Positions 50,474 through 51,843 of a stretch of DNA of 64,000 bases are shown here, piece after piece. Numbering within the stretch: the first letter of the stretch is position 1; each line of letters starts with the position of its first letter. Source of the DNA: Emticicia sp. 21SJ11W-3 (lineage in GTDB: Bacteria > Bacteroidota > Bacteroidia > Cytophagales > Spirosomataceae); the NCBI RefSeq assembly GCF_024138715.1, contig NZ_CP092074.1, positions 310,001 to 374,000 of the forward strand. Reading direction: 5' to 3'. Position numbers and translations under genes: made by a program. The notes below the pieces were generated by a model that was not told where the DNA came from, ran no database searches, and saw only the letters and a program-made list of their open reading frames with translations.

Positions 50474-50544
50474 ACCGTTCATGAATTAGCTTTGACCGCT
50501 CATAAATTTGGAGTTAACTAATTAAAAAAGACACTCTAGATTTG
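50474..50544 (+). promoter_or_regulatory. LytTR-type promoter module 1
   Basis: The boxes ACCGTTCAT (50474-50482) and ACCGCTCAT (50495-50503) start 21 bp apart, i.e. with a 12-bp spacer. The first fits the LytTR consensus [TA][AC][CA]GTTN[AG][TG] fully and the second misses one base. Then come TTTG (50507-50510), 26 bp, and a perfect -7 box TAGATTTG (50537-50544). No gene starts soon after, so it may feed the downstream genes or a small RNA. Confidence 0.6.
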
Positions 50545-50720
50545 AATCGTCAAAGCAGCAATAAAAATAAAAAAGCAGTAAAAGTAAAAATTAGAGGTTT
50601 TAACAAATTTTAACTTTTTGCAGAATAAAGTTTTGTTTTTGTTGCGAAAAAGTAAAGTAATTAAAAATTGACAAAATAAAATTCTGATTTCAATGACAAT
50701 TAAGACTATCAAATCTACTA

Positions 50721-50792
50721 ACCGTTTATCCTTTTAAAATAACCATTCAAGTAGTTTGTATAGCATAGTACCAAGTAAAACACATAACTTTG
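50721..50792 (+). promoter_or_regulatory. LytTR-type promoter module 2
   Basis: ACCGTTTAT (50721-50729) fits the LytTR consensus fully. ACCATTCAA (50742-50750) fits in 7 of 9 positions. The period is again 21 bp. Then TTTG (50755-50758), 26 bp, and a perfect -7 box TAACTTTG (50785-50792). The layout matches module 1, and both continue with TTTGAATC and CAAAG. Transcription would start near 50799, 160 nt before the gene at 50962. Confidence 0.6.
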
Positions 50793-50961: not shown

Positions 50962-51336
50962 ATGAAAACGTTAACATCAACCATCGCCATCGCTTTATTA
51001 GCAACATCAATCGCATTCAACGCCAATGCTGATGATAAAAAAATTGAATATAAAAGTAGTAACCTTAACGTAGGGATGTACGAAGCCGGTTATACTAATT
51101 CAATGAAACTGAACATGAATCTTACTAAAGATAAAGGGGTTTCGGCCACTATCAAATTGATGGATGCTGACGGAAGCCTGCTACACGAAGAAGTGCTTGG
51201 TAAAAAAGTTACCGCATACAAATTGTGTTTCGATATGAGTAACATGAAACCTGGTAAATATTATGTTGAGTTGAAAAACGGCGACCGCATCATTACCAAA
51301 GAAATATTAAAAGGTACCGGTTCTTTAAGCTATTAA
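50962..51336 (+). CDS. Small secreted beta-sandwich-like protein (tandem paralogue A)
   Basis: The start ATG at 50962 gives signal peptide MKTLTSTIAIALLATSIAFNANA. The 124-residue product is about 100 residues when mature. It resembles the DUF3244/T9SS-sorting-like Ig fold, with alternating strands and the closing pattern LKPG-type turn plus YYVELKNGDRIITKEI. No cysteine-based or catalytic motif is seen. It is a paralogue of the next gene (shared VGMY, MKxNxM and closing strand). Regulation is probably by the LytTR-type modules upstream. Confidence 0.8.
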   Translation: MKTLTSTIAIALLATSIAFNANADDKKIEYKSSNLNVGMYEAGYTNSMKLNMNLTKDKGVSATIKLMDADGSLLHEEVLGKKVTAYKLCFDMSNMKPGKYYVELKNGDRIITKEILKGTGSLSY

Positions 51337-51397
51337 GCATTTAACCGCTCATCAGGTTATTTTGCCGATTAACTTAAATGCTGACACAAAAGTTTTT
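51336..51397 (+). other. Hairpin and T-run between the two secreted paralogues
   Basis: AGCATTTAA (51336-51344) is inverted at 51374-51382, and a TTTTTT run follows 9 bp later. The loop holds another ACCGCTCAT (51344-51352), the same 9-mer as in module 1, with a poor partner 20 bp on. It could be a partial terminator or a third, weaker promoter module for the second gene. Confidence 0.4.
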
Positions 51398-51453
51398 TAA
51401 GTGCATCTATTAAATTGAAAAAGCTAACATTTAAATTTTAAAAAATTACAATT

Positions 51454-51843
51454 ATGAAAAAGTCTGTAAAAAATTTCGCTTTAGCTCTTGTAGCTGGTTT
51501 GTTCACTATCTCATCAGTATTTGCTACTGAATTGCCTGAAGGCAAAACTTTTGATGTGGGTATGTATCGTGTGATGAACTCCATGAAAATCAATGTTATG
51601 ATTGCCAAAGAGCAAGGTAACTGGGTGGAGATTCGTGTAAAAAATGCTAAAAATGAAACCATCTATGTTGAGGTGGTAAACAGAAAAGCAACTCAGTTTG
51701 CCAAGAAATTTAATCTGGAAGGCCTGGAAGACGGCGCTTACCGTTTTGAAATTACAAATGGTAAAGAAACCGTGGTGAAAGAAGTAAGCGTGCAAACGAA
51801 CTCTCCGAAACCAACTGATTACAGAACTGTAGAAGTAAAATAA
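51454..51843 (+). CDS. Small secreted beta-sandwich-like protein (tandem paralogue B)
   Basis: A 129-residue protein with signal peptide MKKSVKNFALALVAGLFTISSVFA. The mature part (FDVGMYRVMNSMKINVMIAK, then LEGLEDGAYRFEITNGKE) matches the neighbour's layout strand by strand. Both look like a single T9SS-sorting-type or DUF3244-type sandwich without a cargo domain. The function is unknown; the closing pattern LxxGxYxxxxxxGxxxxxKE is shared with secretion signals. A strong terminator follows, so the pair forms one unit. Confidence 0.8.
   Translation: MKKSVKNFALALVAGLFTISSVFATELPEGKTFDVGMYRVMNSMKINVMIAKEQGNWVEIRVKNAKNETIYVEVVNRKATQFAKKFNLEGLEDGAYRFEITNGKETVVKEVSVQTNSPKPTDYRTVEVK

Follow-up and report, generated by a model that had tools for sequence, protein, structure and literature searches.

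Paired LytTR-like boxes, a PadR-type operator and a −7 element recur with near-rigid spacing ahead of small secreted protein genes in Emticicia and related genera

Introduction

The question raised by this locus is which kind of promoter, and which regulators, serve two small secreted paralogues (ORF1 and ORF2) encoded in a 64,000-nucleotide stretch of Emticicia DNA, referred to here as the window, from a genome of 5.18 Mb in a single contig. A preliminary description had reported two duplicated promoter modules of identical geometry, each with a pair of 9-bp LytTR-like boxes, a TTTG, a gap of 26 bp and a TAnnTTTG box, and had placed the modules ahead of the two paralogues. The features considered in the window are as follows.

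50474..50503, + strand: LytTR-like box pair of module 1, ACCGTTCAT (50474-50482), N12, ACCGCTCAT (50495-50503)
50507: TTTG of module 1
50537..50544, + strand: −7 element of module 1, TAGATTTG
50721..50750, + strand: LytTR-like box pair of module 2, ACCGTTTAT (50721-50729), spacer CCTTTTAAAATA, ACCATTCAA (50742-50750)
50750..50772, no strand assigned: PadR-type operator AGTAGTTTGTATAGCATAGTACC, half-sites GTAGTTTG-N5-CATAGTAC, abutting box 2
50755: TTTG of module 2
50785..50792, + strand: −7 element of module 2, TAACTTTG
50962..51336, + strand: ORF1, 124 aa, with a signal peptide (by eye) and a predicted Ig-like beta-sandwich, DUF3244/Por_Secre_tail-like
51344..51372, + strand: third, weaker box pair with a 20-bp period, ACCGCTCAT (51344-51352) and GCCGATTAA (51364-51372)
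51383..51410, + strand: tentative ECF-sigma-like promoter of ORF2, GACAC (51383-51387) and GCATCTAT (51403-51410)
51454..51843, + strand: ORF2, 129 aa, secreted paralogue of ORF1 with 28–29% identity

Architecture of the two modules upstream of ORF1

The 9-bp box pairs with a 21-bp period, at 50474/50495 and 50721/50742, are present as had been described, and in both modules a TTTG is followed after 26 bp by TAnnTTTG and then, 3′ of the −7 box, by TTTGAATC-NN-CAAAG. By eye, three of the four boxes match the LytTR pattern of the preliminary description with at most one miss, and the fourth, ACCATTCAA, has two. The geometry is identical as far as the 21-bp period and the 26-bp gap are concerned, but not in the gap from box 2 to TTTG (3 bp in module 1 vs 4 bp in module 2); from box 2 to the −7 element, the gap is 33 bp in module 1 vs 34 bp in module 2. 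Moreover, the two modules do not serve one paralogue each, as both are located upstream of ORF1, and their description as duplicates found no support, since only 14 of 33 positions agree between box 2 and the −7 box, a value that 401 of 2000 shuffles also reached. Within the 12-bp spacers, 3 of 12 positions agree between the two modules.

With a hand-made paired-box scorer, which was designed knowing the window boxes, the two modules were the best pairs in the window (20.2 and 19.5, the next being 16.9). A genome-wide search for TTTGN{24,28}TANNTTTGAATC returned 4 matches, and none in the backwards control. Another candidate, TTTGNATCNTCAA, gave 2 matches in the genome vs 0 in the control and was not established as a general promoter signature.

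Conservation of the modules within Emticicia

Among ten relatives from the genus that keep the genes, the boxes of module 2 withstood the comparison, being kept in all ten, with box 2 damaged in two of them (L012 and L018). Those of module 1 mostly did not, being kept in only 3 of 10 (L010, L011 and L012), so few that the conservation of module 1 is weak evidence; the other seven relatives had no pair scoring at least 15 within 700 bp before module 2. Over the ten relatives, the module 2 block showed an identity of 0.82 to the window, vs 0.45 and 0.53 for its flanks. Mean identities within module 2 were 0.67 for box 1, 0.81 for box 2 and 1.00 for the spacer, and the −7 element reached 0.90. 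The spacer CCTTTTAAAATA (50730-50741) was identical in 10/10 relatives and hence conserved above the boxes that it separates; this would not be expected of a plain LytTR site.

In case of module 1, the TAnnTTTG was retained in all three relatives having the module, whereas its TTTG was missing in all three (AAATTATAAG in one and AAATTGTAAG in two). Thus, the TTTG of module 1 looks like a chance match. The TTTGAATC that follows the module was also lost in 3/3, with ATCAAAG retained in 2/3. On the other hand, the TTTG-N26 of module 2 was conserved, but as part of AGTAGTTTGTATNNCATAGTACC and its close variants. Module 1, which is confined to one sub-clade, consists of boxes and a −7 element and is without an operator.

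The −7/−33 promoter question

The sigma-ABfr promoter of Bacteroidota is described with TAnnTTTG at −7 and TTTG at −33 (PMC7366714, PMC2483708). A TTTG near −33 was not found in the two modules, where it sits 26 bp before the −7 box. The 26-bp gap had been read as a long −33/−7 spacer, and this reading is not supported, since the TTTG of module 2 is an operator half-site and that of module 1 is not conserved.

Positions relative to transcription are given for starts assumed 7 bp after TAnnTTTG, at 50551 and 50799 as in the preliminary description. On this basis, the box pairs are centred at about −62/−63 and the operator, from about −48 to −28, takes up the place of a −33 TTTG. AgrA sites are reported to be located at about −60 (PMC4227749). 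The suggestion of an activator-dependent promoter is thus plausible, given that module 2 is without a −33 TTTG and that the pair centre is near the −60 reported for AgrA (PMC4227749).

One explanation would be two duplicated LytTR promoters, with a −33 TTTG and a −7 box 26 bp apart, that a LytTR-type regulator activates alone. It would account for the TTTG-N26-TAnnTTTG of both modules and for the conserved boxes. We consider it very improbable, however, since the TTTG is lost from module 1 in every relative that keeps the module, the TTTG of module 2 forms half of an operator that padR promoters also have, and between box 2 and the −7 box the two modules resemble each other no more than shuffled sequences do.

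PadR-type operator and the padR operon

The palindrome of module 2, the left half of which is its TTTG, scored 25.2 bits with a matrix made from 18 padR promoters of other genera (without Emticicia). A second regulator had escaped the preliminary description. In the Emticicia genome, a PadR gene (Pfam PF03551, 66.5 bits) is found 74 kb upstream (G000:C1:286532), and a matching palindrome, AGTATCTTGCATTGCATAGTACC, lies directly ahead of its own TAnnTTTG. The next gene encodes an 836-aa protein with PspC, LiaI-LiaF-TM, Toastrack and DUF2807 domains, in which no HAAS domain was detected in Pfam at E ≤ 0.01. Of 30 genomes, 29 have the palindrome at their padR promoter (L094 is without it), as do 10 of 11 further ones (L190 is without it); these 11 omit L196, whose genome is the same as that of L094, and L197, which is not an upstream region. 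A site ahead of padR is at the expected place for an autoregulatory operator.

As the genome has 3 PadR genes, the regulator that binds the palindrome might not be the PspC-linked PadR. This is quite unlikely, considering that the palindrome precedes the PspC-linked padR in 39/41 genomes, where an autoregulatory site is expected, whereas upstream of the two remaining PadR genes the matrix scored −3.1 and −6.5.

For the family-wide analysis, 71 upstream regions of the ORF1 family from 30 genomes were used (29 relative loci, 2 window regions and 40 fetched regions). The set omits weak matches and most downstream copies of tandem arrays, many of which are strong, and L117 contributes only 56 bp upstream, where its contig ends. 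An operator of at least 19.4 bits was found in 24/71 family regions, while dinucleotide shuffles reached at most 17.7 (1420 shuffles), reversed regions at most 10.9 (71) and other loci at most 7.5 (86 chunks); 44/71 regions had no operator of at least 10.5. The operator was seen in family regions of 24 of the 30 genomes, all 24 of which also have it at padR. As for the six remaining genomes, G013 and G039 are without an operator at padR too; G017, G027 and G038 have it at padR and none ahead of the examined family genes; and in G015 an operator was noted by eye at the family locus, upstream of the 800 bp that the scan covered.

A pattern search for the operator allowing 2 mismatches was not specific (72 matches vs 91 in the control), and 30 of the 72 were re-scored with the matrix. 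Candidates L158, L161 and L181-L183 (11.2–16.0) were not counted, because they fall below the shuffle maximum of 17.7.

Other genes behind PadR-type operators were also observed. In the Emticicia genome, L199 (G000:C1:518141) encodes a small secreted protein behind an operator of 19.7 bits and one LytTR-like box, with no Pfam match at E ≤ 0.01, and L142, from another genus, encodes a protein of L199-like appearance, preceded at a greater distance by an operator and a box pair. L200 (G000:C1:966900) encodes an OMP_b-brl_3 protein behind an operator of 29.7 bits, and L149, from a second genus (G033), a protein of outer-membrane beta-barrel type, also behind a PadR-type operator (by eye).

Box pairs and spacing across the family

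The paired-box scorer, with periods of 20 or 21 bp, was run on the last 420 bp of each of the 71 regions. Pairs scoring at least 18 were found in 22/71 regions, and in none of the 71 reverse complements, 71 reversed regions and 568 dinucleotide shuffles. Without Emticicia, 13 of the 56 family regions had such a pair. At a cut-off of 17.2, there were 13 regions with a 20-bp pair and 12 with a 21-bp pair, whereas any other period from 10 to 39 gave 3 at most; no pair of at least 16.5 was present in 37/71. A strict pattern searched over 61 genomes of Spirosomataceae, which we take to be the family of Emticicia, gave 13 matches, spread over 11 genomes, whereas the backwards control gave 2. Nine of the 13 precede ORF1-family genes (7 already known and 2 assigned by eye), while by eye three of the other four lie ahead of another small secreted protein, an outer-membrane-type protein and a TetR gene, respectively, and the last is at a contig edge. 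Paired LytTR-like boxes thus recur across the secreted-protein family.

What recurs, in Emticicia and in other genera of the family, is the composite of box pair, PadR-type operator and −7 box, and its spacing is near-rigid. The operator-bearing family regions above 10.5 bits number 27, from 24 genomes, with 26 distinct sites as L033 and L121 share one; the operators of L033, L121 and L037 (10.9–13.9) fall below the shuffle maximum. In 20/27 regions, box 2 ends exactly at the operator, and five more come within 1 bp after the left half-site is re-anchored by eye, the exceptions being L024, which is without a pair, and L035, which is out of register. The TTTG of the −7 box lies 36–38 bp after box 2 in 25/37 box pairs, and a TTTG at 4 bp after box 2, which is the operator half-site, was found in 14/37, any other distance being seen at most once. 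The distance from the boxes to the −7 element is retained whether the middle is an operator, an AT-rich stretch, as in module 1, or a TGTCAC/GCAAC/GTAAC element. Such an element is followed, after about 17 bp, by TCTTTG in L021, L023, L113 and L120 and by TCATTGG in L026; we presume that these elements behind the box pairs of the five regions are ECF-sigma-like.

At padR promoters, pairs of at least 17 were found in 13/41, all with a period of 21, compared with 3/410 shuffles, 0/41 reversed and 0/41 reverse-complemented promoters; the other 28/41 had no such pair. In all 13, box 2 ends 24–26 bp before the operator (26 bp in 11/13). The −7 TTTG follows box 2 by 57–58 bp in 6/13, and in the other seven, where an earlier TTTG 10 bp ahead was caught, the −7 TTTG located by eye gives 56–58 bp. 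Compared with the pair at family genes, the padR box pair is thus set back from the −7 box by about 21 bp more, or two helical turns. In the padR promoter of the Emticicia genome itself, only the proximal box is good and the pair score is 13.7.

These distances bear on the possibility that boxes and operator make up one extended site, at which PadR would be the sole regulator (or an activator) and the boxes would be accessory to PadR or RNA polymerase. The boxes indeed abut the operator in 20/27 family regions, and wherever a padR promoter has a pair of at least 17 (13 cases), its distance to the operator is fixed at 24–26 bp. Nevertheless, we find this unlikely, as pairs without an operator (module 1, L021 and L023) keep the same −7 distance, the distance from pair to operator is 26 bp at padR vs 0 at family genes, each of them fixed, and 28/41 padR promoters are without a pair of at least 17.

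LytTR assignment of the boxes

The BtsR motif is ACC[GA]CT[CT]A-N13-ACC[GA]CT[CT]A; it plays no part in the assignment given here. For AlgR, the sites CCGTTCGTC and CCGTTCATC are reported (PMC4064291), and box ACCGTTCAT (50474) contains 8/9 bases of CCGTTCATC, the rhlI site (PMC4064291). The description of the boxes as LytTR-like is supported by their resemblance to AlgR sites; in the family promoters they cluster at 20/21 bp, and they are conserved beyond the genus and stand ahead of small secreted proteins. A broad LytTR regulon in the genome was not confirmed, since the strict pattern gave 4 matches, both modules included, vs 3 in the control.

The Emticicia genome has 26 LytTR matches, which were scanned for box pairs of their own, and two pairs of at least 17.2 were found. 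One of these (L065, 17.3) was discarded as it lies inside an open reading frame. The other (L002, 17.5) is intergenic, 104 bp before the start of L204 (G000:C1:4916287), a gene for a stand-alone LytTR protein of 156 aa. A GCCACTTAY-type pair of period 21, scoring 16.8–17.7, precedes this gene in 10/10 Emticicia genomes having it (L204 and L205-L213); in G005 there was no gene match at 1e-15. Related direct repeats do accompany a LytTR gene in Emticicia, and the GCCACTTAY repeat is probably an autoregulatory site. However, in 27 genomes searched outside the genus, an orthologue of L204 was found in none of 12 other family genomes and none of 14 order genomes, with one 38% match in G015, and the boxes of the L204 gene (CACTTACC) differ from the family-wide ones. 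For these two reasons, the L204 protein cannot account for the boxes found across the family. A gene for a LytTR response regulator was also seen 1.3 kb from the L021 gene (G021), and this was set aside as probably due to chance, on a rough estimate.

It is conceivable that the direct boxes are bound by a direct-repeat activator that is not of LytTR type and acts with PadR. The searches did not turn up a LytTR gene that occurs throughout the family and has these boxes, and the spacer CCTTTT belongs to the conserved sequence, both of which fit such an activator. We assign it a small but real chance, as the boxes match the AlgR sites CCGTTCGTC and CCGTTCATC and have a period like that of LytTR sites, a related conserved pair of period 21 precedes a LytTR gene in Emticicia, and 26 LytTR matches are available in the genome.

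ORF1, ORF2 and the third box pair

ORF2 starts 117 bp after ORF1 and has a box pair of its own ahead of it, which is absent from the preliminary description and scores 16.8. The first box of this third pair, with a degenerate second box, is kept in 12 other intergenic regions of 8 genus genomes, in an alignment that leaves out G004 and G009 and in which CATC is nearly invariant. The GACAC/GCATCTAT ahead of ORF2 is presumably an ECF-sigma-like promoter.

Orthologues of ORF1 with 87–88% identity are found in Emticicia sp. BO119, E. agri and Emticicia sp. C21. In searches with profiles, neither protein reached the cut-off of DUF3244 (PF11589; 25 bits, with 20.6 for ORF1 and 19.9 for ORF2) or of Por_Secre_tail (PF18962; 27 bits, with 26.0 and 19.7), and ORF1 stayed below that of TIGR04183 (22.8 vs 23), for which ORF2 was not listed. 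An AlphaFold2 model of ORF1 from 9 sequences showed seven strands with modest confidence (pLDDT 59.7), residues 61–120 having a pLDDT of about 71–85 per ten-residue block. Foldseek with this model (pLDDT 59.7) gave as its top match the DUF3244 protein 4g5a (E = 1.6e-4); in fifth place came a T9SS C-terminal domain (8qb1). ORF1 and ORF2 are probably envelope or surface proteins.

Two further observations concern copies of these genes in other Emticicia. A short hairpin-like insertion, GCGGTTCGCCGC, was seen immediately before the start codon in different copies of ORF1/ORF2 (L201-L203, at G003:C11:185039 and at G007:C2:532259 and 532810), and an extended 25-bp pattern of it had 3 matches in 6 genomes, all at the ORF1/ORF2 locus. 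In E. agri (L011/L052), a first copy of the ORF1 family has an in-frame stop codon and stands beside a second, open copy.

A proposed two-input promoter

The observed sites, their spacing, their conservation and the match to the padR promoter are, with reasonable probability, best explained by a composite two-input promoter at module 2, where a LytTR-type activator and PadR would jointly control ORF1. A LytTR-type regulator would bind both direct boxes, which span about −78 to −49, and would recruit RNA polymerase to a TAnnTTTG promoter without a TTTG at the −33 distance. The PadR repressor, encoded 74 kb away ahead of the PspC/LiaF/Toastrack membrane protein, would bind the palindrome at about −48 to −28, and there, beside box 2 and over the −33 region, would block activation until an envelope signal releases it. 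We propose LytTR activation without a −33 element and an override by PadR because the boxes are centred near −60 and the operator lies over −33. The binding of the proteins, the logic of activation and repression, the start sites, the signal and the function of the proteins are here predicted from sequence.

Module 1 may be an activator-only promoter of ORF1, and ORF2 may be served by its own weaker box pair, the output being small secreted Ig-like (DUF3244-like) proteins. Two signals would probably meet at a single ORF1 switch. As the padR promoter shares the operator and often the box pair, the two inputs probably form one circuit. For a family-wide two-signal circuit, in which padR and the secreted Ig-like genes are jointly controlled by the LytTR-type activator and by a PadR-PspC repressor of envelope stress type, we see roughly even chances.

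If this is true, promoters that share the geometry from boxes to −7 element and differ in what lies between (a PadR operator, an ECF-like element or neither of them) would make up a modular series, and the secreted Ig-like proteins would be an output of the PspC system that we have not found described. The secreted DUF3244-like family would gain its first regulatory context and the LytTR proteins of Bacteroidota a candidate binding site. No description of such a LytTR/PadR promoter in Bacteroidetes was found in the open-licence literature, judged mainly by titles, nor any paper there on Emticicia and LytTR. The conserved operator names candidate targets, and the PadR-PspC envelope-stress idea (PMC11237479) thereby becomes directly testable in Bacteroidota.

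Comparison with known systems

ORF1 may be related in fold to DUF3244 proteins (PDB 4g5a, 3sd2 and 3d33) and T9SS C-terminal domains (8qb1), 4g5a being the top Foldseek match of its model of modest confidence; the sequences of ORF1 and ORF2 score below the Pfam cut-offs.

As to the promoter, both modules share the TAnnTTTG −7 box with the sigma-ABfr promoter, but module 2 has no TTTG at the −33 distance and the operator occupies this region (PMC7366714, PMC2483708). The 9-bp direct boxes resemble the direct-repeat sites of AlgR and AgrA, with sequences near the AlgR sites CCGTTCGTC and CCGTTCATC (PMC4064291), and the pair is centred near −60 as reported for AgrA (PMC4227749). They differ from AgrA and AlgR sites in that they abut a PadR-type operator, stand at a Bacteroidota −7 promoter and have a conserved spacer.

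Finally, PadR-like proteins paired with HAAS-bearing membrane proteins have been proposed, in the portion of the source available, to answer membrane-linked signals (PMC11237479). Compared with the HAAS-PadR-like wHTH/PspC-Toastrack systems in that portion, the Emticicia pair has no Pfam HAAS domain at E ≤ 0.01, and its PadR-type operator also precedes genes for secreted proteins, beside LytTR-like boxes, an arrangement of which that portion makes no mention (PMC11237479).
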